From assembly GCF_000526795.1 (NCBI RefSeq), contig NZ_JAGT01000001.1, positions 1,573,001-1,637,000 on the forward strand: DNA of 64,000 nucleotides. Direction: 5' to 3'. The notes below the pieces were generated by a model. The model saw only the letters and a program-made list of their open reading frames with translations. It ran no database searches and was not told where the DNA came from. The position numbers and the translations under genes were made by a program. The stretch comes from Ruminococcus flavefaciens AE3010 (GTDB lineage Bacteria; Bacillota; Clostridia; Oscillospirales; Ruminococcaceae). Below are positions 4,292-20,566 of this stretch, piece by piece; the stretch's first letter is position 1; each line of letters begins with the position of its first letter.

Positions 4292-5616
4292 GACTGCGGC
4301 ACCTCCTTTTTGCCCGTGACATATTCGTATATCATGGATTTTTTATAGGATTCCAGCTCGATGAGGAACTGTTCTTTTTTTGATATAAGGCTGTCTATCT
4401 CGGTGCATTTTTTGTCGAGGTAGGCGGCTATTTCTTTTTGCTCAATAATTGATGGAACAATCATATGAAATTTAGTTAATGAATCTTTGCCGACGTTTCC
4501 TTGTGTATTTGAGTTAATGAACCTTCTTATATCTTCAATAAAAATACTTGATTTGAAATAATAAAACATGAACTTTCCTGTCATGTTTTTGGCGTTAGGT
4601 CTTATTGTAACACAAGCATATGAAACAAGAAAATCATTGTCTGTATCCACATAACTTACCGTTCCGATTGTTGCATATCTTGCAAATATAATATCGCCGT
4701 TCACTGGTTTATATTTTACTGCAAGATTATCAAAATCTTCATCAGAAATCTTCTTACACTTATCAAAGCATATTTCGCTCGATTTTTCTTTTAAGTCACC
4801 AATCATCAAGTATGGTTTACCATTATCTGTTGACTCAGGCATAAAATGGTCAATATCTCCTAATGATTCCATTGTATACCAAGATTTTAAAATACTCCAC
4901 TCCTCGGGTATCTCCCCGATCCACTTAATACCGCTGTCCTTCATCGGTCTGTCGCCCCTTACGCCCTTTGTCACCGCCTGTGTGATGACAGCCTGACGGA
5001 GCTTTTTGTATTCCTCGATAGAGGCTTTTGTTTTCTCGATGATGTTGTCGATATGAGCGCATTGGCGGTCGAGGTGGGCTGAGATTGCTTGCTGTTCGGG
5101 GAGAGGTGGGAATGTAAATTCAAAATTGTAAAATTGTTCTTGATATAGGTGTTTTATTGTGCTTTGTCCTGTTTGGCTTAATGTATACCATCTCCAAAAT
5201 ACATCGGAGAGTAATACATAATACATATACTTGTCATGATATTTAAAATCATAGATGTTTCTAATAAGTAATACACCGCTATTCAATGAAACCATTTCGG
5301 GACAGTTTTTAGCAATAGCAACTTTTCCAATCGTTCCGTCTTTTGTGATTAATAAATCATCTTCTTTTATGTGAATATCAGAATCTTCACGAAAGCGTTC
5401 TTCTGTGATATGAACACAACTATCCCAATCAATTACACCTTTATTGAAATTAACTCCTGTAATTAAATAGGCTCCTGTATCTGTATATTCTGTTGATTTC
5501 AGACCGTCCCAACCGATTCTTCCTTTCAACCAAGATGCATATTTAACTTTAATGGTATCCCAATTCTCAGGTATTTCCCCAATCCATTCAACACCGCTGT
5601 CTTTCATCTGTCTCAA
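4288..5616 (-). CDS. hsdS: Type I restriction specificity subunit (HsdS)
   Basis: A 442-residue protein with the usual two-half design. Each half starts with a near-repeat (MKDSGVEWIGEIPE at residue 4 and MKDSGIKWIGEIPE at about 224), contains one variable target-recognition domain, and ends in a conserved helix with the PxxEQ..I..xLD pattern (LPEQQAISAHLD in the first half, IIEQKEIAAYLD in the second). The two recognition domains read the two half-sites of a bipartite DNA target, which cannot be predicted here. Start and stop both overlap neighbours by ATGA. Both halves are complete, so the subunit looks functional. The near-identical repeats could serve as recombination points for swapping recognition domains, but no second hsdS is in the window. 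Confidence 0.93.
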   Translation of the reverse strand: MRQMKDSGVEWIGEIPENWDTIKVKYASWLKGRIGWDGLKSTEYTDTGAYLITGVNFNKGVIDWDSCVHITEERFREDSDIHIKEDDLLITKDGTIGKVAIAKNCPEMVSLNSGVLLIRNIYDFKYHDKYMYYVLLSDVFWRWYTLSQTGQSTIKHLYQEQFYNFEFTFPPLPEQQAISAHLDRQCAHIDNIIEKTKASIEEYKKLRQAVITQAVTKGVRGDRPMKDSGIKWIGEIPEEWSILKSWYTMESLGDIDHFMPESTDNGKPYLMIGDLKEKSSEICFDKCKKISDEDFDNLAVKYKPVNGDIIFARYATIGTVSYVDTDNDFLVSYACVTIRPNAKNMTGKFMFYYFKSSIFIEDIRRFINSNTQGNVGKDSLTKFHMIVPSIIEQKEIAAYLDKKCTEIDSLISKKEQFLIELESYKKSMIYEYVTGKKEVPQS

Positions 5617-7376
5617 GCCTTTTCACCCCCGAACAGAGCGTCAAGGCTCGACTGTATATCCGCTTCGATACCGCTGAGCCTTTCCATTATATCCTCCACC
5701 TTTTCAGGCGCCTGATACTCATAGAAATAGCGTGTCATGGGTATCTCATAGCCCACCTTCGTCTTCTTCGTATCTATCCACGCATCGGGAGCGTAAGGCA
5801 GGACTTCACGGGCGAAATACTCGTCTATATCCTCCCTCAGCGGAACATTCTCCGTGTCACGCTTTGAAGCATCTGCAACAGGCTTGCCCTTTTTCAGCAC
5901 AGGCTGACCGTTCTCGTCAAGTTCGGGACGCTCAACAACTATCTTGTTATAGCCGAATTCCTCGTTGTCGAATATCCTGCTGTGGCAGTAAACGCCGTTC
6001 TTGTCGCCGTATATCTCGTCATTTCTGAACTCGCCGTAAGCCTTCACGATAAGCTCACGGCAGAGGTCGGTAACGTCATAGCGCTTGAATCCGATAGACT
6101 TCCTGCGCTGTTCTCCGCAGTGAGAAGCGTCGATGAGCTGCACCTTTCCTGCACGGTAGGCAGGCTTGTTCTTGCTCAGCACCCAGATATATGTGCTGAT
6201 ACCCGTATTCATGAACATATCCGTGGAGAGCTGGATTATAGCGTCCAGCCAGTCGTTTTCAAGTATGTAGCGGCGAATCTCGGAAGGACCGCTGCCTGCG
6301 TCTCCTGAGAACAGCGGAGAACCGTTTTGTACTATCGCCATTTTGCCGTTCTGTGCCAGCTTTGAAAGGCCATTCAGTACAAAGAGCTGCTGACCGTCGG
6401 ATATTTTCGGAAGTCCCGGAGCAAAGCGTCCCAGCTCGCCCTTCTTAGCTTCCGCTTCAACAGCCTTTTGCTCTCTCTTCCAGTCGATACCGAAAGGCGG
6501 ATTTGAGATGATGTACTGGAACTGGTATCCGCTGAACTGATCCTCGGAAAGCGTGTCACCGTAACGCATATTGTTGGGATCTCCGCCTCTTATCATCATA
6601 TCAGCCTTTGCAATAGCGAATGTGGAGGGGTTGAACTCCTGACCGAAGCAGGTTACGTCCATATCGGAGTTGAGGTCGTGGATACGCTCCTCCATACAGC
6701 TGAGCATCTGACTTGTGCCCATAGCCATATCGTAAACGGTAACTGTGCCGTTCTTGGAGAGATCAGCGTCCGAGAGGAGCAGGTCTGTCATGAGGTAGAT
6801 AACGTCACGGCTGGTGAAGTGAGCTCCTGCCTCCTCGCCGAAGGACTCAGAGAAACGCTTTACAAGGTCCTCGAACATATAGCCGCAGTCAACTGCGCTT
6901 ATCTTATCAGGACCTAGATAGCCTTTCTGAGAGTTGAATTCCTTTATAACGAGATAGAGGGTGTTGCTCTCCACCATGCGGTTTATAATAGCATTGAAAT
7001 CAAACTTTGCAAGCACGTCCTGTACATTGGCGGAGAATCCTGCGAGATAGTCGCGGAAGTTAGCCTCGATGTTGTCAGGATCAGCGCAGAGCAGATCGAA
7101 TGTGTATTTGCTTGTATTATAAAACTGATAGCCGGAAGCCTTTGTGAGGAAGCCCTCGATAACTGCGAAGTTCTTCTTGCTTTCGTACTACTTCAGTACT
7201 GCATCATGTGTAGGGAGCAGACAGTCGTGAAAACGCTTCACCACTGTCATAGGAAGTATAACGAGTCCGTACTCATGCGGCTTGAACGGTCCGCGCAGCA
7301 TATCCGCTACGTTCCATATCATAGACGCCTTTTCAGCGATATTTGTTCCAACTACTGTAAATCTTTCGTTTGCCAT
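5613..7376 (-). pseudogene. hsdM: Type I restriction methyltransferase (HsdM), interrupted by an in-frame TAG
   Basis: The 5' part (7376-7191) encodes 62 residues that match an HsdM N-terminus, then a TAG at 7190-7188. The same frame continues without further stops to 5613, giving a 587-codon protein if the stop is read through. The downstream part has the N6-adenine motif NPPFG at about 292-296 of the joined frame and the C-terminal helical region. The stop sits where a lysine is plausible (LK*YESKKNF), so AAG to TAG is the simplest change. Motif I reads YDMAMGTSQML rather than the usual DPxxGTGGxL, which may be a subfamily trait. Start is ATG at 7376 behind a TTGAAA-N17-TATAAT promoter. Sequencing error, true inactivation and low-level suppression are all possible. 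Confidence 0.88.
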
Positions 7377-7484: not shown

Positions 7485-7675
7485 TAATTGTATTTTCCGT
7501 TTAGTATAAAGGAAGTGAAATATGACGATTTATAGCCTCTTGCACGTGAAATATTATACAATAGCAGGTAGTCATAATTGTATAATACTACAAAAAACTA
7601 TCTATGTGTGTATTGTTCATAAAATATTATCATTATTATTAAATAAATATGTTATAATTACACCATGGAATAGAA

Positions 7676-7715
7676 GTCGCAAATTCGAGAAATTTGCGAC
7701 GGCATACAAGCCGTC
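7676..7715. repeat. Two overlapping inverted repeats in the leader of the 7786 gene
   Basis: A perfect 10-bp stem (7676-7685 with 7691-7700, loop CGAGA) is followed by a 6-bp stem (GACGGC 7698-7703 with GCCGTC 7710-7715). The two share three bases (7698-7700), so they cannot both form completely. The rest of the 7485-7785 gap holds a TATAAT at 7653-7658 without a convincing -35 box. Function unknown. Confidence 0.5.
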
Positions 7716-7785
7716 AATACTATTATAGCATGAAAAAGGCAAAGTTATTCAAGAAAAATTATGGGTAATTACAGGAGGTTTTATT

Positions 7786-8940
7786 ATGAAAAACGGTTTA
7801 GAAATCAATCAGACAAAACAAACGATAGAGCGTTCAGAATCTGCTTCAACGTCAAAACTTGAAACTGAAAGTTCATCTCCAAGGAATACGCAGTTTAAAG
7901 AGAGCGATAGCGAGTTCAATACATCTTATGTCATTGAATCACAAAAGAGATCTCCGACAGTGTATATTCTTTGCGGTGTCATAGGAACTCTGTTGCTTGG
8001 ATTAGGTGTTTTCGGCGGAATGAAGCTTATAAAGAATAAAGACAGCAACAACAATTTTACTACGCCTGCAGTTGAAAGTGTATCTTCCACGATCACTTCT
8101 TCTACAAATAATATTCCTGTAACAACAATAACAACAGGAGCCGCAACAACTGTTGCGCAACAGACAGAAACTACAGCAACTGCAGCCGTGATAACGACTG
8201 CTATGCAAAAGGTGCTCAAAGAGTATCCTGCAAGCGATATTAGCAATTATCCGCAGTATATTTCTGCGATAAAGGACGGAATTGATCAAAACAAGTTTGA
8301 TGCTAAAAGCTCAGGATACGCTTTATATGATCTTAACGGTGATAACACTCCTGAAATGATAATAAACACTGCATTGTATGGTGTTTATTCCATTAATGGT
8401 AATACTTATTCGGAGTTAATACAAACTTATACTGTTCCTCGTTCTCCGTCTTTAGCATTAACCGATACGGGATATCTTGTTGTTAAATCTCTAACTCCAC
8501 AGGGAGAGAGTAGCATATCATATTACAAGTTTAATGGCGGAACTAATGGTGAATACGAAGATCCAAGTCCAGAACAAATAGGAACCGAAGTGGCAATCAA
8601 TCTCACACCAATAACAAATATAACAGAGTTTCAATCCACGGATAGTATTAAGCCCAATAATTATACTTCCTATGATACAAGTGAAGCGCCTTCTGACTTT
8701 ATATTTTTCTCTAATGGCCCTTACGATCCAGCGTTGGGAAAGGTTTGGACTGAAGAGGGAGCATTAAACTTAAGAGCTAAACCTAGTACTGACAGTGAGA
8801 TTATTATTCAGATGCCAAAGTCATCATATATAAATATTTTTGGACAAAATAACAATTGGTGTTATGTTAGTTATTCAGAAAATGGAATAACCTATTTTGG
8901 ATATGCTAGCAGACAATTTATAGCAGATGGGGGTATTTAA
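7786..8940 (+). CDS. Single-pass membrane protein with shared EYPASDIS module and SH3-like C-terminus
   Basis: A 384-residue protein of no named family. ATG follows an AGGAGG site. Order: cytoplasmic polar segment (1-64), one membrane helix (about 65-85, motif GVIGTLLLGLGVFGG), a Thr/Ser-rich linker (to about 143), a globular module starting KEYPASDIS at 145 with YDLNGDNTPE, and a C-terminal SH3b-like domain (ALNLRAKPSTDSEI) at about 320-384. The helix, linker and module recur in the gene at 14186, and the module alone recurs near the end of the gene at 9023. SH3b domains usually bind peptidoglycan, so a cell-wall-associated role is inferred. It probably forms a unit with the next gene, 82 bp downstream. 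Confidence 0.75.
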   Translation: MKNGLEINQTKQTIERSESASTSKLETESSSPRNTQFKESDSEFNTSYVIESQKRSPTVYILCGVIGTLLLGLGVFGGMKLIKNKDSNNNFTTPAVESVSSTITSSTNNIPVTTITTGAATTVAQQTETTATAAVITTAMQKVLKEYPASDISNYPQYISAIKDGIDQNKFDAKSSGYALYDLNGDNTPEMIINTALYGVYSINGNTYSELIQTYTVPRSPSLALTDTGYLVVKSLTPQGESSISYYKFNGGTNGEYEDPSPEQIGTEVAINLTPITNITEFQSTDSIKPNNYTSYDTSEAPSDFIFFSNGPYDPALGKVWTEEGALNLRAKPSTDSEIIIQMPKSSYINIFGQNNNWCYVSYSENGITYFGYASRQFIADGGI

Positions 8941-9022
8941 GATCGATTGATACGTTACTAGTCATGGTATTGAGATAACAGAATATACTTGATATCTAAT
9001 CTTTATTTAAGGGGGAACATTT

Positions 9023-12000
9023 ATGAAATTTAAGAGAATAATATCTATGGTATTGTCTACGGTTATTACCGTAACTTCAACAGCTGTGTTCGCTGGAGCA
9101 CCCATAATGCAAAATAGCATAGCAGTTGCTGCTGATAATAATCAAACTTATAGTTCTTGGCAGGAAGGCTATAAGGAAACACTAAAAACTGTTATGAGTG
9201 AAGGAAATTACTGTAGCAAGGCAGTATATGGCGAAAGTATGTGTTCCACTTATGCAATACGCGATTTGAATAACGACGGGACACCGGAACTCTTTATCAA
9301 TTATTCGCCTGCGTCCGCAGCATTTTCCGAGTTATATACTTTTTATAATTCAAAAGTTGTTAAGCTTATGACTTTACCAAGAGGCGGGTTTGTATCGTAC
9401 TCTCCAGAAAAAAATCTGATATATAGCAGTGGTGGCGGTGGAGCCGGAGGCTATGTTTATCATACATATTCAAAAATCAATAATGGTTCCATTGCAGATG
9501 TTGATTCATTTATGATCAGCGCAAGCACCTCGCCATGGACATACTATATTAATGAGCAAAAAGTAACTGAGGAAACATATAAATCAGCCAAAAGCAAATA
9601 TGACAGTATTATTTGGCTCACCGTAGAAAGAGAAAAATATTTTGAGGACATAAATTCTGATGATGATTTAGCTCTAAACTACAATTCATGGCAGGAAGGG
9701 TATAAAGATAAGCTGACCAGTATTGTTAAAGAGGGAAATTATTGTAGCAAGGCGGTATATGGTGAAAGTATGTGTTCCACATATGCAATACGAGATTTGA
9801 ATAACGATGGCATTCCTGAGCTTTTTATCAATTATCAGCCTGTAACTGCTGCATATTCTGAGTTATATACTTTTTATAATTCTAAAGTTGTTAAGCTTAT
9901 GACTTTACCACGAGCAGGCTTCGTATCGTACTCTCCTGAAAAAAATCTGATATATAGTAGCGGTGGCGGTGGAGCCGGGGGATATGTCTATAATACATAT
10001 TCCAAAATAGTTAATGGCTCTATTGAAAATGTTGATTCATTTATGGTTAGTGGAAGTACCACGCCACCGACATATTATATTAATGAGCAAAAAGTATCTG
10101 AATCAACGTATAAATCAGAAAAGACTAAATACGACAATATTATTTGGTTAAATGTAGAGAGAGAAAAATATTTTGAAAATATTAACACGGACTTTATGGC
10201 GTATACCACTACCACCACAACAACTACAACAACTACTACTCAGAAAAAAACTACAACAACAACTACTACAACAAGAATAACAACAACTACTACATCTTCA
10301 GATAACGCCCTTAGTGGCAAATGCGGAGAAAATGCAACTTTTATAATCGAAGAAGATGGAACGCTATATATCAATGGTACAGGAGCAATAGAATATAAAG
10401 CTACATCTTGGGATAAAAATCGAGATATTATTAAAAAAATCGTAATTTCAGATGGAATTACCAGTATTTGTAAAAGTGCATTCTTTTTCTTGCCCAAGGT
10501 TCAATCTGTAAAAATCGCAAATTCTGTAACTCAAATAGATGAAGGAGCGTTTAATTACTGTCAAAGTATTAAATCAGTTAATTTACCAAATTCTATTACA
10601 AAAATCGAAATTGATACATTCTGCCAGTGTTCGCAGCTTGAATCTATTAACATTCCAGATACTGTTACAGAGATTGGTTATGGAGCGTTTGATGGTTGTC
10701 TTAGCCTTAAAAAGTTAACATTTCCAGATTCTGTTGAGAATATAGGTCCACGTTCATTTTATAATAATAGATTAGAATCAATTATTATTCCAGCTTCTGT
10801 TACCGAAATCGGTTATGAAGCGTTTAATTATTCATCTGGTAGTAATGGTAAACATTTAGGCTCAATTAAAATAATGAATTCTCAATGTATAATTGGTATC
10901 GATGCTATTCCAAAGTCGTCAAAAATATATGGTTTTAGAGGTTCTACGGCTGAGGAATATGCTAATAAAAACGGGAATTATTTCGAAGCAATTCCTTTAC
11001 CAATGGATGATTCTTATGCAGATACAGGACCTGCTGTTGGCGATCTTAGCTTTTTTGAGAAATATGATACTAAAAAAGCAACTGTTAAGCCAATACTGTC
11101 ATTAAGCAGAATAGAACTTTCAATTGAGGAAGCAAGAGATAATCCAACTCAGACAATAGCATTATCAATTAAAAATGCTGAAAATGAATACGCAGGAGCA
11201 ATGTTAAGAGTAATTTGGGATGAACGACTAATATTTGCTGGCGGTAAGGATAAAGTCGTCTTTGGTTCTGCTTTAGAAAAAATGGCTAATTATGGTGTAG
11301 AGCCCAGTGATAAAAATAAAGAATTATTTATATCATTTGCAGGGAATGACAACGAAGGAAAAGATGGTATTATCTTGTCTTTTCCATTAACAATATCTTC
11401 TGATTGTAAACCAGGTGATGTTTATCCAATTCAGATAAAATATGGAATTGGTGACCAGTTTGTTCGTTTGCCTAATGATGAAGAAGGGCAGTTAATGGAA
11501 GCATGGGTATTTACCCAAGGTATCGTTCAAGGATATATCAAAATTAAAGATGAAGAACCGACACCTGTATATACACTTGGTGATGTCAACGATGACGGCA
11601 AAATAAACGCAGTTGACGCTTCTTCTATTCTTACAGCATACGCAAATATGTCTACGAATAAGCCAAGTGGACTATCAGATGTACAGATGTCAGCTGCTGA
11701 TGCAGACGGTAATGGAGTTGTAAATGCTGTTGACGCCTCCAATGTCCTGAGCTACTATGCTTATGTATCAACCACTCAATCAGATATTCTTTCATTTGAA
11801 GAATACTTAAAAAAAGGCAAGACTGTTGAGCAAAAAAAGATCAAAGAATATCCTGCGAGTGATATAAGCAAGTATCCTCAGTATATCAATGCTTTTAAGA
11901 ATAATATTAGCTCAAATATGTATAAAGGCATATATAATGTTTCGGATGTTGGATATGCATTATATGATATTAATTCGGATAACATTCCAGAATTAGTTAT

Positions 12001-12613
12001 ATCTGCAGGTAATTATGATATTTATTCCATCTATAATGATGAAGCAGTTAATCTGACTCCGTTCTGGGGAGCTAATCTTGTAAAAGGAGTTATTATTTAC
12101 GAAAACGGTTGTATTGGTATGACATCGATATCTGGTAACGGTGAAGGCGGTACTACGTATTATAAATATAGCGGCGGTAAAGGATTAGAAACTATTGATA
12201 GCATTTCATTTAACACCTCAAAAGCAACATATTCTCATAAGGGACAAAGCATATCCAGAGAAGAATATGATAAACTCATTTCTTCGTATGGTCAACAACT
12301 TAAGATAAGCTTTACTCATATAAATAATATTTCAGAATTTAATAAAAATGCTGTTGATGCTTCGGATAATGTAAGTACTGGAAAATCTCATGAACAGATG
12401 TATGAAGAGTACAATCGTCTGGTAGATGAGTACAATGCTCTTATTTTGGAAGCTGATCGCGCTTATGATGAAATGGCAGCAGCTTCTCCCGAAAAATTTG
12501 AAGTAGCCAAGGCAAAGTGGGAAGCTATCCTTGAAAGGGCAGGTGAAGTTGGGGATAAAGCTGACGAGCTTCATAAGAAACTTCAATCTGATGGCAATAC
12601 CACTGCTTCTTAA
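9023..12613 (+). CDS. Large secreted multidomain protein: tandem repeats, LRR, cohesin-like and dockerin modules
   Basis: A 1196-residue exported protein. Signal peptide 1-37. Two tandem modules of about 170 residues (45-215 and 220-392), each with SWQEGY, DLNNDGxPELFINY and a GGGGAGGYVY loop. Thr-rich linker 394-426. BspA-like leucine-rich repeats about 430-655. A cohesin-like beta-sandwich about 677-843 ending GYIKI. A dockerin about 849-925 with two DxNxDGxxNAVDAS-type calcium loops. The EYPASDIS module from 941. A charged coiled coil 1117-1190. Cohesins bind dockerins, so this protein could both plug into a scaffold and receive partners. Its dockerin closely resembles that of the nuclease at 61478. 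AAGGGGG precedes the ATG. No catalytic domain is recognised. Confidence 0.8.
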   Translation: MKFKRIISMVLSTVITVTSTAVFAGAPIMQNSIAVAADNNQTYSSWQEGYKETLKTVMSEGNYCSKAVYGESMCSTYAIRDLNNDGTPELFINYSPASAAFSELYTFYNSKVVKLMTLPRGGFVSYSPEKNLIYSSGGGGAGGYVYHTYSKINNGSIADVDSFMISASTSPWTYYINEQKVTEETYKSAKSKYDSIIWLTVEREKYFEDINSDDDLALNYNSWQEGYKDKLTSIVKEGNYCSKAVYGESMCSTYAIRDLNNDGIPELFINYQPVTAAYSELYTFYNSKVVKLMTLPRAGFVSYSPEKNLIYSSGGGGAGGYVYNTYSKIVNGSIENVDSFMVSGSTTPPTYYINEQKVSESTYKSEKTKYDNIIWLNVEREKYFENINTDFMAYTTTTTTTTTTTTQKKTTTTTTTTRITTTTTSSDNALSGKCGENATFIIEEDGTLYINGTGAIEYKATSWDKNRDIIKKIVISDGITSICKSAFFFLPKVQSVKIANSVTQIDEGAFNYCQSIKSVNLPNSITKIEIDTFCQCSQLESINIPDTVTEIGYGAFDGCLSLKKLTFPDSVENIGPRSFYNNRLESIIIPASVTEIGYEAFNYSSGSNGKHLGSIKIMNSQCIIGIDAIPKSSKIYGFRGSTAEEYANKNGNYFEAIPLPMDDSYADTGPAVGDLSFFEKYDTKKATVKPILSLSRIELSIEEARDNPTQTIALSIKNAENEYAGAMLRVIWDERLIFAGGKDKVVFGSALEKMANYGVEPSDKNKELFISFAGNDNEGKDGIILSFPLTISSDCKPGDVYPIQIKYGIGDQFVRLPNDEEGQLMEAWVFTQGIVQGYIKIKDEEPTPVYTLGDVNDDGKINAVDASSILTAYANMSTNKPSGLSDVQMSAADADGNGVVNAVDASNVLSYYAYVSTTQSDILSFEEYLKKGKTVEQKKIKEYPASDISKYPQYINAFKNNISSNMYKGIYNVSDVGYALYDINSDNIPELVISAGNYDIYSIYNDEAVNLTPFWGANLVKGVIIYENGCIGMTSISGNGEGGTTYYKYSGGKGLETIDSISFNTSKATYSHKGQSISREEYDKLISSYGQQLKISFTHINNISEFNKNAVDASDNVSTGKSHEQMYEEYNRLVDEYNALILEADRAYDEMAAASPEKFEVAKAKWEAILERAGEVGDKADELHKKLQSDGNTTAS

Positions 12614-12672
12614 CTATTTATTGATATTATAATATCTTTATGTATCAGATTATAAGAACCGTTAAAGAGCAA

Positions 12673-12699
12673 TAAAGGCGGGTGATAAACCCGCCTTTA
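12673..12699 (+). terminator. Terminator after the large surface protein
   Basis: An 11-bp perfect stem (12673-12683 with 12689-12699) with a 5-base loop and a short T-rich tail, 60 bp after the stop at 12613. The 100 bp beyond it show nothing recognisable. Confidence 0.75.
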
Positions 12700-12799
12700 C
12701 ATATTTCACTACGTCAGTGCTGTATAAAGTATAACAATATAAGCCTGTGCATTAGCTTCAGTATTCTATGATAGTTGATATAATAAGAGTCCTCATGGA

Positions 12800-12931
12800 T
12801 TACATCCAGTCCTCGAGCAAATCTGCTAAAGTATCGTAATCCATGTCGTCTTCGTCATAGGCGCTGCTCCATCTACGGATGTTAGCTTTAGAGTCACCTT
12901 CATGACGCAGACACAAGAACTTAGTCAGCAT
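12800..12931 (-). CDS. Small acidic 43-residue protein
   Basis: A short frame (start MLTKFLCLRHEGDSK, end LADLLEDWM) with a strong AAGGAGGG site 8 bases before ATG and a TTGACT-N16-TATAAT promoter just upstream. These two signals together make it a credible gene despite its length. The protein is soluble and rich in Asp/Glu with one WSSAYDEDD stretch. No family recognised. It stands between two plus-strand surface genes and beside a decayed gene copy. Confidence 0.6.
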   Translation of the reverse strand: MLTKFLCLRHEGDSKANIRRWSSAYDEDDMDYDTLADLLEDWM

Positions 12932-12964
12932 AAGCAATCCCTCCTTAAAGCTGATCTTAATTAT

Positions 12965-12992
12965 ATTATAGCTTAATATCCAGATTAGTCAA
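12965..12992 (-). promoter_or_regulatory. Promoter of the 43-residue gene
   Basis: TTGACT (12992-12987), 16-base spacer, TATAAT (12970-12965), 34 bp before the ATG at 12931. Confidence 0.7.
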
Positions 12993-13054
12993 CCATACAG
13001 TTTTTATTTTCAATAATTAACAAATTCCTGATAAAAGATATTGATTCCATAAAA

Positions 13055-13240
13055 TCAATCCTCAAAATCCAGATCATCAGAAAAATCAAAGTCATCTGCA
13101 TCTATGGCAGATTCTTCGTAGCCAGATACAAAATTGAAAATGTTGAATTCATCCACATTATCATACTCAAAACAAAAGCCTAAGGTCTCAGCATCTTCAA
13201 TTTCTTCTATTGTTGTCGCATACGCTTTGCCTTTTTCTTG
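13055..13240 (-). pseudogene. Truncated copy of the 16755-17426 gene (C-terminal part only)
   Basis: Minus-strand codons from 13240 to the TGA at 13057-13055 encode about 61 residues ending DEFNIFNFVSGYEES and a Asp/Glu-rich tail. This matches the C-terminus of the protein encoded at 16755-17426 (DEFNIFNFVSGYEESDNDADD). The frame is closed upstream by TGA at 13243-13241 and has no start codon or ribosome site. It is a duplication remnant, diverged at many third positions. Confidence 0.75.
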
Positions 13241-13320
13241 TCACATTATACAACATACATGTTTTAAGATTGTATAAACATACAAAAAGCACAAATATGT
13301 ATATTGTTAACAAAATGTAT

Positions 13321-13349
13321 TTGAATTTATCTAAAAATAATGATATTAT
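13321..13349 (+). promoter_or_regulatory. Promoter of the YidD-domain gene cluster
   Basis: TTGAAT (13321-13326), 17-base spacer, TATTAT (13344-13349), about 60 bp before the ATG at 13409. The flanking 13250-13400 stretch is very AT-rich and otherwise featureless. Confidence 0.55.
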
Positions 13350-13408
13350 TACTATGTAAGATACAACCGTTTCCTACTAATATGCCTATTTAGTATATTT
13401 TCAGAATT

Positions 13409-13900
13409 ATGAAGTGTAATTATAAAATCTACGAAAACTATTCCGGCGAGATGCCGGAACATAATACTCAGTTAGACGAGCAAATAATACTTACTCAAGT
13501 AAAAAAATCTTTAGAAGAACCAAAGAAGATAGTTTTCCGTCATAAAACAAAAGTCTGGAAAGATGCATTATTGCTGTTGAGCATAATTGTAATAGTTTCA
13601 GTGACTATGATTGCTATACGTTATTTAACTAATATTTCCGCTTGGATATTTGCTTTGATGTTGTTATTAGCAGCAATTGTATTCTTTGCCGTACTGGGTA
13701 AGAAATTATTGTTGACTATTATTAATCTTTATCAGAAGTATGCCCCAGAAACAATACGTTCATCATGTTTATTCGAGCCATGTTGCTCTGAATATATGAG
13801 GATATCAGTCATTAAATATGGAGCGTTAAAAGGCTTTATAAGAGGGATAAAACGCATATTACGCTGTCGTTATCCTAACGGTGGCGTTGACGAACCATAA
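13409..13900 (+). CDS. Membrane protein with C-terminal YidD-like domain
   Basis: A 163-residue protein. Residues about 105-163 match the YidD (membrane protein insertion efficiency factor) pattern: YQKYAPETIRSSCLF, PCCSEYM, KYGALKGF, KRILRCRYPNGGVD. YidD normally is a stand-alone protein of about 70-90 residues that assists YidC. Here it is preceded by about 50 polar residues and two hydrophobic helices (about 52-72 and 76-98), so it is anchored in the membrane by itself. No clear ribosome site precedes the ATG; the start could differ. It is followed 13 bp later by the 13914 gene and then by a membrane protein, so it may assist insertion of its neighbours (inference). Confidence 0.75.
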   Translation: MKCNYKIYENYSGEMPEHNTQLDEQIILTQVKKSLEEPKKIVFRHKTKVWKDALLLLSIIVIVSVTMIAIRYLTNISAWIFALMLLLAAIVFFAVLGKKLLLTIINLYQKYAPETIRSSCLFEPCCSEYMRISVIKYGALKGFIRGIKRILRCRYPNGGVDEP

Positions 13901-13913
13901 GGAGGTAGAATTT

Positions 13914-14156
13914 ATGCAGTACAAAACAATTACTATTGAACATCCATGCAGGTTAAAAAATCATGTAGCTCAAGAGCTAAATGCGGAGTATGAACAGGTA
14001 ATAAACCAACAAGCTGCTGAAGGATGGAAGCTTCTTGGAATCCACCCTATTAATATCCGTAGAAGACTTGGTTGTGCTCAATACTTGTTATGGGGCGTAA
14101 TATGGGGACGACATAATTATTTTCAAGCAGATGTGATAATCTTTTTTAAGGATTAA
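13914..14156 (+). CDS. Small DUF4177-like protein
   Basis: An 80-residue protein. The ATG at 13914 was chosen over an earlier in-frame start because it sits 7 bases after AAGGAGG. The core MQYKTITIEH...LNAEYEQVINQQAAEGWKLLGIH fits the short DUF4177 pattern (a Y-K-T strand, then a helix and EGWxL). Function of that family is unknown. The C-terminal half (LLWGVIWGRHNYFQADVIIFF) is hydrophobic. It overlaps nothing and is followed by the 14186 gene after 29 bp, so the three genes probably share a transcript. Confidence 0.55.
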   Translation: MQYKTITIEHPCRLKNHVAQELNAEYEQVINQQAAEGWKLLGIHPINIRRRLGCAQYLLWGVIWGRHNYFQADVIIFFKD

Positions 14157-14185
14157 TAATACCTTGTATCGGAGGTGGCAACGAT

Positions 14186-15988
14186 ATGTTTATGACCAAT
14201 TATGAATTGATCTACGGGAGTTATAAGGAAACCTCCAATGAAAGCATTCCTTTAATAAATAATGAGACTACTAGCCAGACATATGAAGACAGTAAAGATA
14301 CTGAAACTGCTGTAAGAGCCGTTTCAGGTGCGCACATTGCGGCTGCCAAATTTGCAGGAGGAGCAATATCAAAGCTATCAAAAAAAGCCGTTGATTATGG
14401 TAACTCAGACATTGCTTCAGAAAAGGTAGCTTTTGCCAAAGAAAAAGCTGGTTCAATTTTTAATAGACTGAAAGACAGAGCAACTGGCTTTGCAGCTAAT
14501 AATAAAAACAACACTGACGAAAATGCGTTATACAATTCTGACATGAATACTTCTATTAATGAATATGATAATGTAGGTGATAATGAAAGAAATGGTGTTA
14601 ATCTTTCGTCTACAGGTTCAGCTTTAACACAAATTCCTCAAGCATCATTCAATACAAGGCAATTTAATTATGAAGAGGAGAAGAAATCTCCTGTCATTTA
14701 CGTCCTTGTAGGAGTAATCGGAATCTTGCTTTTAGGAATTGGGGTTTTAGGCGGTATGTTGTTGATGAAAAATAAAACCGATAATAAAGTTCCAGATAGC
14801 AATGAATCAACAGCAGCAGTCGTAACAGAAAGTAATTTGGCAACAACCGACAACGCAAAGACAACGCCTATCGCATCAACTACAGTTACAGCAATTACAA
14901 CTGAATCATCTGCATTACAAATTAAAGAATATCCTTCGAATGAAATAAGCAAGTATCCACAATATATAGATGCAATCAAGGAATGTATTGATTCATCAAT
15001 ATTTACAGTAAATGATGCAAATTATTCACTTATTGATTTAAACGGTGATGATATTTCAGAATTATTAATACAATCTGGAAATGGTTCTGGTATATATGGG
15101 ATAATAGATAATCATTATGTTGAATTAATTAGAACTTATGGTGCATTACGTCCTCCTGCTTTAATTTTTACTGATAAAGGTTATTTGCACATGACATCTA
15201 TTGAAGGAGCCGGTTCACAAGTATATGAATCTTTCTCACAATACAGCGGAGGTACAAAATTGGATGGTGTTGATAGTTTTGAATGTAATCTAGCTAATCA
15301 AACATACAGCCATAATTCTTCTTCAATTTCATCAGACGAATACGAAAAATTACGCTCTCAATATGGAAAAAGTATTGAACTGTCCTTAACGCCTATCTCG
15401 AATATCGCAGATATCAATAATCTTATAACAACAACTAATGCTCCAAAACCCTATATATCAGCACAACTTATTGCAGAACGAGGATTATATGAAGGAGTCG
15501 AGATATATCTGAGCGTTTCAGGTGACTATTCATATTATACTTATGATAGCTATGAATACGGTCCAAATAGCCAAAATCCTTCTCCAAGAAGCGGAAGTTC
15601 TTCGGAACAAAAAATCCGTATAACAGGTTTTTCTGGTGGAGTAACTAAAGTAGTAGTCAATGTTACGCCATATAACAGTAGTAGTATTGCAGGTGATATG
15701 GTAAGTGCAACCTATACGCGTGAATCAAGTAACGTTAAAGCAATCACTTCGTGTAACAAATATGGAAATATATATTCTCCAAGTGGAAATAAAGTTGATG
15801 GTCTTACAAGATCATACTTAATAGATGGCGGTTCAGCGACATACGAAAGACATGATTTAACAGACGGTTGGCATATTGTTGCAGTAAATGCATACTATGA
15901 TGGTTCTGTTTATTGGTACGAACTTTATGATGCTGATGACGGTGATTATTACGGCTGGGTAAATGAAAACAATATAACTTTCTATTGA
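14186..15988 (+). CDS. Single-pass membrane protein with EYPASDIS-type module and SH3-like end
   Basis: A 600-residue protein, a longer relative of the 7786 product. Order: soluble N-terminal part with Ala/Lys-rich helices (1-168), one membrane helix (about 170-192, GVIGILLLGIGVLGGMLLM), a Thr-rich linker, the shared module from about 248 (KEYPSNEISKYPQYI, LIDLNGDDISELL), an immunoglobulin-like strand region (about 425-520), and a C-terminal SH3-like part ending GWVNENNITFY. The TGA stop at 15986-15988 is in frame with the L,D-transpeptidase region that follows, and no ribosome site separates them, so the original protein was probably a fusion of about 797 residues. GGAGG lies 12 bases before ATG. 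Confidence 0.75.
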   Translation: MFMTNYELIYGSYKETSNESIPLINNETTSQTYEDSKDTETAVRAVSGAHIAAAKFAGGAISKLSKKAVDYGNSDIASEKVAFAKEKAGSIFNRLKDRATGFAANNKNNTDENALYNSDMNTSINEYDNVGDNERNGVNLSSTGSALTQIPQASFNTRQFNYEEEKKSPVIYVLVGVIGILLLGIGVLGGMLLMKNKTDNKVPDSNESTAAVVTESNLATTDNAKTTPIASTTVTAITTESSALQIKEYPSNEISKYPQYIDAIKECIDSSIFTVNDANYSLIDLNGDDISELLIQSGNGSGIYGIIDNHYVELIRTYGALRPPALIFTDKGYLHMTSIEGAGSQVYESFSQYSGGTKLDGVDSFECNLANQTYSHNSSSISSDEYEKLRSQYGKSIELSLTPISNIADINNLITTTNAPKPYISAQLIAERGLYEGVEIYLSVSGDYSYYTYDSYEYGPNSQNPSPRSGSSSEQKIRITGFSGGVTKVVVNVTPYNSSSIAGDMVSATYTRESSNVKAITSCNKYGNIYSPSGNKVDGLTRSYLIDGGSATYERHDLTDGWHIVAVNAYYDGSVYWYELYDADDGDYYGWVNENNITFY

Positions 15989-16036
15989 AGAGAATTTAGT
16001 GAATACCTTGAAAAGCATGGATTAAATTCAAAACAA

Positions 16037-16579
16037 ATGGGCAGTTCAAAGCAAGTAATAACCGTTGATTCAAGTGGCAGTTCATGTTCTGTAAAAATAT
16101 ATGAAATTAAAAGCGGTTCATGGGATTGCTTTTTTGAATCAAGTGGCATCGTTGGCAAAAACGGTGTATCAGCAAACAGCCATGAGGGAGACTATTGTAC
16201 TCCTAAAGGTATATTCTCACTTGGATTTGCTTTTGGTACCCAGTCTATGAATAGATTGAACGTCGAATATAGGAAGATAAATGATAACTGCTATTGGGTA
16301 GATGATTCCACATCCCCACTTTATAATCAATGGACTGAAAGCAATAATATCACTTGGAACAGTGCTGAACATCTTATTGATTACCCTGATTCATATAAGT
16401 ATTCCGTAGTAATAAATTATAATATGGAACCGATAGTTCCATATAAAGGTTCAGCTATTTTCCTACATTGTATGACAGGTGAATATACTGCAGGCTGTGT
16501 GGCTGTACCTGAGGATGATATGCTTATTATTCTGAACTGGCTTGATAGTACAAAACATCCGATAATCATAATTGAATAG
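16037..16579 (+). CDS. L,D-transpeptidase (YkuD-like) domain protein, possibly part of the preceding gene
   Basis: A 180-residue product with the catalytic signature of YkuD-type L,D-transpeptidases: an Gly-rich substrate strand, then IFLHCMTGEYTAGCVAV, where the His and the Cys of GC are the expected active residues. Such enzymes make 3-3 cross-links in peptidoglycan or attach proteins to it. No signal peptide and no ribosome site precede ATG 16037. Reading upstream in frame gives 16 more codons to the TGA at 15986-15988, which ends the 14186 gene. As a separate protein it would be cytoplasmic and probably untranslated; as a fusion it would be extracellular. It ends with TAG directly followed by TGA. 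Confidence 0.7.
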   Translation: MGSSKQVITVDSSGSSCSVKIYEIKSGSWDCFFESSGIVGKNGVSANSHEGDYCTPKGIFSLGFAFGTQSMNRLNVEYRKINDNCYWVDDSTSPLYNQWTESNNITWNSAEHLIDYPDSYKYSVVINYNMEPIVPYKGSAIFLHCMTGEYTAGCVAVPEDDMLIILNWLDSTKHPIIIIE

Positions 16580-19612: not shown

Positions 19613-20146
19613 TCAATCCTCATAGTCATGAGGAACGAATACCTTAGGAATTTCAACCTCTGTTCCATCCTCTTTTCTGATAATAAGTTTGGTAGGTTGA
19701 CCGGTTACATCAGCCATATTCTGAGCCAATGCAAAATTGGTGCTATTATCAGCGTACAACATTGAGCCATCGTTTATGTTTGTAGGACTCACTGCTGTAT
19801 GGTTATGATACCAATTCCACTCTCTGTCCTTGTAGTGAGTACCGGTTGCAGCAAGATGAGAATCGGTGATATCTTTAAATATTTCTTTTGTGAGTTCCAT
19901 TGCTTTCTCAGCAGTTGGAGCTGTTTCGCCTGTGAACGCTGTCATGTAGTGAAACACAGGCGTTTTGTCTTGGTTGTCCCAGAACTTAGCAACGGACTGG
20001 AACTGGCGCATGGCTTCTTTAGAATCATTAGGATTGATTCCGAAGCCTTCTTTCAGCACCTGATCCTTTCCAATCGGGTAATTTACGACGTTTTTCAAGC
20101 ATTTATCGTCGCCATTAGTGTGCTTTATCACTTTAATATATTCCAT
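19613..20146 (-). CDS. Short relaxase/mobilisation nuclease domain protein
   Basis: A 177-residue protein covering roughly the N-terminal catalytic region of VirD2/MobA-type relaxases (PF03432-like). It opens MEYIKVIKHTNGDDKCLKNVVNYP, has a VFHYMTAFTGETAPTAEKAMELTKEI segment, and a His cluster THYKDREWNWYHNHTAV, matching the metal-binding HxxxxHxH strand. The stop is natural, with no decayed continuation seen. Typical relaxases exceed 300 residues, so this is either a minimal domain or a truncated form. Its start overlaps the end of the 20128 gene, which encodes the likely accessory protein. Confidence 0.7.
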   Translation of the reverse strand: MEYIKVIKHTNGDDKCLKNVVNYPIGKDQVLKEGFGINPNDSKEAMRQFQSVAKFWDNQDKTPVFHYMTAFTGETAPTAEKAMELTKEIFKDITDSHLAATGTHYKDREWNWYHNHTAVSPTNINDGSMLYADNSTNFALAQNMADVTGQPTKLIIRKEDGTEVEIPKVFVPHDYED

Positions 20147-20430
20147 AGTTTTCTGACCTCCTCGTATACTTCTAATGCCTCTTGTGGCATATTGGGTTTA
20201 AGATCCTCATACTTCTTGTTCTTAGCATTCTCCAGATCATACATCAAAGCTGGTGTAAGTGGGATTGGATAATGCTTGAGTCTGTATCTTGTTTCTTCTG
20301 AAAAGGAAATACCCTTATCCTTAGCATTCTTATCAAGCTCATTATACAAAGACTGTGGTACTTTCACCGGTAAAGGTACCATGGGATCCTTTGGTGCTTT
20401 ATTATTGTTTTTTTCATTATGATCTGACAT
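20128..20430 (-). CDS. MobC-like mobilisation accessory protein
   Basis: A 100-residue protein. ATG 20430 was chosen for the AGGAGTG site before it; an earlier in-frame start is unsupported. The middle (PLPVKVPQSLYNELDKNAKDKGISFSEETRYRL) fits a ribbon-helix-helix DNA-binding fold, typical of MobC/relaxosome accessory proteins that bind oriT. It overlaps the relaxase start by 19 bp, so translation is coupled. Confidence 0.65.
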   Translation of the reverse strand: MSDHNEKNNNKAPKDPMVPLPVKVPQSLYNELDKNAKDKGISFSEETRYRLKHYPIPLTPALMYDLENAKNKKYEDLKPNMPQEALEVYEEVRKLWNILK

Positions 20431-20454
20431 ATAGATCACTCCTAACATATTATT

Positions 20455-20566
20455 AATTCCGTAGATGTTGTTTCTATACTCTCGGACTATACCCATTAGG
20501 AATACATCTTAATATTAAATATATTAATTACAGGATATAAGTATAGAATAAACGTAATACGGAATT
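20455..20566. other. Distant 9-bp inverted repeat upstream of the mobilisation genes
   Basis: AATTCCGTA (20455-20463) and its reverse complement (20558-20566) are 94 bp apart. The region lies directly upstream of mobC and so could include oriT, but no nic-site consensus is recognisable. Confidence 0.25.

Follow-up and report, generated by a model that had tools for sequence, protein, structure and literature searches.

In a 64,000-nucleotide stretch of the genome of Ruminococcus flavefaciens AE3010 (contig NZ_JAGT01000001.1, positions 1,573,001 to 1,637,000; the whole stretch is here called the window), an L,D-transpeptidase (LDT) sequence lies behind the gene for a 600-amino-acid (600-aa) modular membrane protein, in the same frame and separated from it by a single TGA (Table 1). 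An earlier reading of this DNA, made from the sequence alone, had recorded both but had missed the shared frame. We consider it probable that conserved readthrough of this UGA makes a minor, anchored form of the membrane protein that is tipped with the LDT. In some rumen Ruminococcus, the LDT lies in frame across a conserved UGA and lacks its own export signal, and it is therefore probable that ribosomes occasionally pass the stop.

Conservation of the junction

The distribution of the junction was surveyed by searching 125 genomes of the genus with the read-through segment. It was found that the junction is spanned with exactly one TGA at eight places in six of these genomes (G000, G008, G035 and G159 once each, G044 and G057 twice each; G and L numbers are our labels for genomes and loci). 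The carriers beyond the window are R. flavefaciens FD-1 (two copies), R. flavefaciens MC2020, the R. flavefaciens metagenome-assembled genomes (MAGs) RUG14191, in which the intact copy begins at the contig end, and RUG12238, and an uncultured Ruminococcus MAG. The count leaves out LDT fragments of G071 and G006 and a single-open-reading-frame (single-ORF) LDT of G025; the G035b copy, which has two TGAs across the junction and an internally deleted LDT, was counted only as degenerate. In all eight intact copies the TGA is followed by exactly 196 codons, with no insertion or deletion, and the base after the TGA is A, as it also is in G035b.

Coding selection was found to continue in frame behind the stop. 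Over codons 17-196 after the TGA, the proportions of synonymous (pS) and nonsynonymous (pN) differences were 0.68 and 0.18 (pN/pS 0.26), and over the 16 linker codons directly after the TGA they were 0.70 and 0.46 (pN/pS 0.66), a ratio below those of all 74 stop-free column shuffles. Upstream of the TGA, the last 24 codons gave a pS of 0.64 and a pN of 0.14, and pairwise values among the copies were 0.47-0.86 for pS compared to 0.08-0.27 for pN. These values indicate purifying selection on both halves, with the TGA and the length still fixed where synonymous sites are near saturation.

The same values bear on the idea that the arrangement is a decaying gene fusion, in which two domains became parted by a stop and the LDT half is being lost. 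The internally deleted LDT of G035b, the fragments in G071 and G006, and the absence of an LDT behind the corresponding genes in G085 and G178 would fit such a loss. However, the pN/pS over codons 17-196, the near-saturated synonymous sites, the lack of any indel and the invariance of His160 and Cys170 (post-TGA numbering) in 8/8 copies are not what a decaying sequence would be expected to show, and we regard decay as very improbable.

LDTs make 3-3 cross-links, their substrate lies outside the membrane, and the YkuD His and Cys have catalytic roles. The LDT half resembles YkuD-type L,D-transpeptidases in its match to PF03734 (E 3.3e-8) and in the His and Cys of the C-terminal motif, whereas it differs from them in lacking an export segment of its own and in standing behind the stop codon of another protein. 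With a hydropathy script, a hydrophobic export segment was found in 0/8 LDT halves; among six single-ORF LDT homologues the same script found a transmembrane segment in three (G029, G060 and G025), and in the other three (G061, G005 and RGIG2815) the start resembles a lipobox by eye. All six homologues align without gaps to the residues that directly follow the TGA, and tblastn reaches residues 3-7.

No start codon (ATG, GTG or TTG) is common to the eight copies, and in two of them (G044a and G035) the first 35 codons contain none. These observations speak against the alternative of two separate genes, in which the LDT is translated on its own, either by re-initiation or from an unusual start beyond the TGA, and lies in frame as a relic of its insertion behind the stop of the membrane protein. 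Individual copies do have possible starts (ATG at codon 16 in G000, TTG at codon 2 in G159, TTG at codon 11 in G057b and GTG at codon 8 in G057a), relatives without the LDT stop at the same place as the TGA, and MC2020 (G008) retains an intact LDT half despite a broken half before the TGA, with 106 open codons, all of which would suit a separate gene. Nevertheless, the product of such a gene would have no export segment while its substrate lies outside, and a separate gene leaves the TGA-A and the 196 codons, fixed in 8/8 copies, unaccounted for. We therefore think a separate gene unlikely.

Three further observations concern the LDT family. The single-ORF LDT of G025 (L108) has an in-frame TGA in its C-terminus at the position of a Trp (TGG) in the G060 homologue. 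The remainder of the LDT beyond this codon is conserved, and the TGA is either a nonsense change or another tolerated UGA. In a Faecalibacterium MAG (L193, 9001-9561), a 192-codon frame encodes an LDT relative (38%) in which no export signal is obvious; the open frame before it has 296 codons and ends in TAA. A viral origin of the LDT was considered and rejected: 17 pattern-matched stretches in viral contigs gave 0 relatives, and four phage records had LDT similarity, at 30-45% identity.

Stop context and the decoding of UGA

The stop codons of 26 genes ending in the YYGW-type domain were compared. TGA followed by A was present in 9/9 genes with LDT sequence behind them, whereas the 17 relatives without an LDT ended in TAA (8), TGA (8, followed by T in seven and C in one) or TAG (1), with TGA-A in 0/17. 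The Fisher p value was 0.009 for TGA and 4e-5 for A at position +4 among TGA-ended genes, ancestry not being corrected for. In the tree, one supported branch held the nine LDT bearers together with two LDT-free members, which end in TAA and TAG. In the part of an E. coli study that bears on this context (PMC5289835), UGA-A is prone to misreading by tRNA-Trp and misreading of UGA-U is low.

Two other means of decoding UGA were tried and rejected. For selenocysteine, tRNA-Sec (RF01852) and SelB (TIGR00475) scored over the cut-off in 0/10 genomes, compared to 5 and 2, respectively, of 14 control genomes. For a UGA-suppressor tRNA, ARAGORN found no TCA anticodon in 27 loci chosen to cover 50 tRNA matches or in the window tRNA. 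UGA is in use as a stop in this organism, as TGA ends 42 of 108 long ORFs in stretches of its own genome.

Several points weigh against readthrough at this junction. TGA-A is not rare as such: of the 153 ORFs in the large loci that end in TGA, 56 have A next, junctions included. Among the long ORFs of the fetched loci, at least 150 open in-frame codons lay behind the stop in 38/444, six of them being these junctions, so that a single in-frame pair means little and the weight rests on the constancy over eight copies; as the eight share ancestry, they are not eight independent cases. The 16-codon linker is only loosely constrained, at 0.66 versus 0.26 in the LDT. A conserved RNA structure at the TGA was not well supported (-2.86 kcal/mol; 213 columns, 8 rows); weak-context readthrough needs no stimulating structure. 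The intact LDT behind the broken half in MC2020 is unexplained by readthrough alone, unless the break is recent. The case as a whole is built on sequence. A structural model of the joined C-terminal domain, TGA and LDT was poor (mean predicted local distance difference test score 50.8).

The cassette, its neighbours and the shared module

Table 1. Position and content of the genes and parts discussed, in window coordinates.
Feature	Position	Strand	Content or evidence
YidD fusion	13409..13900	+	two hydrophobic segments (hydropathy script), then YidD domain 13700-13891 (residues 98-161; PF01809)
DUF4177 protein, between YidD and membrane protein	13881..14156	+	PF13783 29.6 bits, cut-off 25
600-aa modular membrane protein	14186..15988	+	long N-terminal part, anchor, module, YYGW-type C-terminal domain, stop TGA
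600-aa protein, sub-parts	anchor 14693-14749; module ~14912-15406; YYGW-type C-terminal domain ~15722-15985	+	
Candidate readthrough codon: in-frame TGA with A after it	15986..15988	+	TGA-A in 8/8 intact copies and one degenerate copy
16 in-frame codons from TGA to first ATG	15989..16036	+	gapless alignment to single-ORF LDT homologues
LDT half, 196 codons and TAG	15989..16579	+	PF03734; alignment of 8 copies
384-aa membrane protein	7786..8940	+	module ~8200-8721; SH3_3 8761-8922
1196-aa secreted protein	9023..12613	+	modules, LRR_5, ScaE-like cohesin, dockerin
1196-aa protein, N-terminal half	two divergent modules ~9107-10192; LRR_5 10430-10768	+	
1196-aa protein, C-terminal half	cohesin 11081-11545; dockerin 11576-11746; third module 11828-12331	+	
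Relaxase-domain protein, with a small gene before it	19613-20496	-	PF03432
hsdM frame	5613-7016	-	467 aa

A YidD-fusion gene precedes the gene for the 600-aa protein, and this arrangement recurs. In a search of 199 genomes, YidD-fusion genes longer than the bare domain were found at at least 18 places in the genus and one outside it, not counting degenerate matches with several stops in G171 and G172. At 13 of the 18 genus places among the matches listed, a gene of the membrane-protein family follows the YidD gene directly or follows a DUF4177 gene (G000, G049, G173, one of two G167 places, G085, G087, G024, G166, G178, G044, G037, G039 and G159); the G166 locus is cut by a contig end, and no anchor is visible in its piece. 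The next gene is of another kind in G031, G065, G163 and the second G167 place, and the G018 place was counted among the 18 but not assigned either way. The cassette has two layouts. In the first, YidD-DUF4177-membrane protein, the DUF4177 gene is at the same position in G049, G173, G167 and G085; in the second, a small protein of 124-136 aa (the one tested had no Pfam match) precedes YidD and the membrane protein.

YidD has a role in membrane insertion. The fusion scored above the cut-off of the YidD model TIGR00278 (59.8 bits, cut-off 40) and differs from this insertion factor by its extra N-terminal hydrophobic part. It differs from ordinary YidD also in adjoining one surface-protein family, a separate, shorter YidD being encoded elsewhere in the same genome.

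Integrase-like genes were found near the cassette in G159 (PF00589), G085, G057b and G087 (same cluster), and in G167 and G037 (same N-terminal motif by eye). Homologues of both the window relaxase and the small gene before it lie near the cassette in L049, L050, L057 and L061. From this gene content it is plausible that the cassette is mobile cargo in a mobile region. A search of plasmids with the 600-aa protein gave no match. A duplicated region upstream of 7786 and 13409 was rejected, as just short, weak similarity was present, and a role in defence was rejected as well: among ten proteins, PADLOC matched the adjacent type I restriction genes and, weakly, the YidD fusion, which hit a CARF-membrane model at E 0.0075. 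On the other strand, the hsdM frame aligns at 97% over 462 aa with residues 121-582 of a G049 homologue that is 586 aa long, and the G049 DNA is collinear at 90% up to window position 7661, beyond that frame; in the window, this type I methylase frame looks broken in its 5′ part, to about 7661.

The sequence-only reading had combined the genes from 7786 to 16579 into a single docking or sensing system, on the grounds of a module shared by three of them. All of its ORFs lie where it had placed them, and the similarity that it had noticed is far beyond chance: a search of the genome with the module copy from the 600-aa protein recovers the other two at E 3.7e-33 and 1.6e-23, and all three D/N positions of the DxNxD motif are invariant in the alignment. 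Two divergent copies are present at the N-terminal end of the 1196-aa protein (E 3.5e-6 and 1.4e-5). The YidD fusion, with its hydrophobic segments, and the LDT domain on the same strand run are also as described, and the placement of the proteins at the surface or wall is supported by anchors, signal and domains. Each membrane protein has a single hydrophobic segment (residues 59-77 of the 384-aa and 170-188 of the 600-aa protein, hydropathy script), as had been proposed. The SH3-like ends ascribed to both were found in one, because the C-terminal end of the 384-aa protein is a Pfam SH3_3 domain (E 1.6e-10), whereas for the end of the 600-aa protein neither Pfam (at E<=1) nor NCBIfam gave a matching model.

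The module bears some resemblance to FG-GAP/XAC2610-type domains. The third copy in the 1196-aa protein matched FG-GAP (PF01839) at 26.9 bits (cut-off 22.1) over 26 residues, and this protein matched the XAC2610-related NCBIfam model NF047539 at 41.6 bits (cut-off 35), best over the stretch 79-154; neither model matched the 384-aa or 600-aa protein. The Pfam PliI model gave only a match below cut-off, in one relative. Foldseek with the module returned 834 matches, 0 at E<=0.001; in structural comparison 4qtq gave the longest alignment among the matches listed, 125 residues. The NF047539 score of the 1196-aa protein and the alignment to 4qtq are candidate points of likeness to XAC2610/PliI-type inhibitors of peptidoglycan hydrolases, as described in the relevant part of PMC10933484.

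The 1196-aa protein has the signal-like N-terminal end (residues 6-24, hydropathy script), the cohesin and the dockerin that had been claimed for it. Its dockerin matched PF00404 (E 7.6e-8, 32.9 bits, cut-off 22.9), and its cohesin is similar to the ScaE cohesin 2zf9 (E 6.2e-24), with no match to a Pfam cohesin model at E<=1. No Pfam or NCBIfam match to a catalytic domain was found. Proteins with a signal, leucine-rich repeats (LRR) and a dockerin are known from the cellulosome of R. flavefaciens FD-1, in the part of PMC2930009 considered here; the 1196-aa protein is like them in these three parts and differs in adding three module copies and in having no catalytic domain matched. A ScaE-like cohesin and a dockerin in one secreted protein would fit a cellulosome adaptor. 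Docking fits this protein, and no other protein of the cluster. Elsewhere in the same genome, far from the window, L063 (6959-9103, minus strand) encodes a 714-aa secreted protein with two modules, LRR and a dockerin.

That the module defines one system is not supported. It occurs at 13 places in nine ORFs of its own genome, in different architectures. In addition, the G049 locus is collinear, at 78-92% DNA identity, up to and beyond a stretch that it lacks, about 7662-13228 of the window; the 384-aa and 1196-aa genes therefore lie outside the recurring unit, which is the YidD fusion and the membrane protein. The shared module itself, the cohesin and dockerin of the 1196-aa protein, and the genes for an LRR/dockerin protein behind the membrane protein (G037) and an LRR protein behind the LDT (G159) would agree with a docking or sensing system, perhaps linked to the cellulosome; given the G049 locus and the varied architectures, we find one highly doubtful. 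In G081 (L052, 7959-9113, minus strand), a module protein has no anchor part and is preceded by an ABC-transporter fragment in another frame, so that this gene looks truncated or rearranged.

A possible route of the enzyme to the cell surface

We propose that 14186-16579 is one readthrough gene. The majority of ribosomes would halt at the UGA and yield a protein that spans the membrane once and exposes its C-terminal part, the module and the YYGW-type domain, on the outside, whereas a minority would decode the UGA by mistake, tRNA-Trp being the most likely agent, and translate the LDT. The readthrough product would be anchored at the surface and carry a peptidoglycan L,D-transpeptidase at its tip. 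In this way export of the enzyme would be tied to the anchored protein, and its amount would be low relative to the enzyme-free form. The upstream YidD fusion probably aids insertion of the anchored protein. For the XAC2610/PliI-like module, possible targets are wall hydrolases, which it may bind or block, and wall glycans, which it may bind. Of this proposal, what the sequences show is the gene layout and its conservation, the missing export segment and shared start codon, and the stop context; the readthrough, the inserted residue, the topology, the enzyme activity and every role are inferred.

The survey of Belinky et al. 2021 (PMC7918605), in the part relevant here, describes bacterial in-frame stops with purifying selection behind them and TGA as a leaky codon read as tryptophan, and the present junction is alike in the selection behind an in-frame stop, with its leakiness and the tryptophan predicted. 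The cases in that part of the survey are short-term nonsense changes inside genes, whereas the TGA described here is at a domain border, is fixed where synonymous sites are near-saturated, and links a half that can be exported to an enzyme that lacks export. Among open PMC papers, none was found that links readthrough, UGA, transpeptidase and peptidoglycan, and those combining readthrough with Ruminococcus flavefaciens concerned just RNA-targeting CRISPR and exon-isoform reporters.

Readthrough in bacterial cellular genes is mostly a matter of statistical inference, whereas here it is proposed for one specific UGA with the cultured carriers FD-1 and MC2020. If it is true, the same chain is expected in two forms, one ending in an L,D-transpeptidase and one lacking it. 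Such genes are divided by ORF callers, which give the LDT half here as 16037-16579, and the enzyme then appears cytoplasmic. We lean slightly toward the view that UGA readthrough, fixed in evolution, sets the share of the surface protein that carries a wall cross-linking enzyme, the anchored protein serving as export vehicle. With a similarly narrow preference, we suggest that such a system would be a cellular counterpart of viral readthrough fusions, carried in a cassette with its own YidD, often among integrase and relaxase genes.

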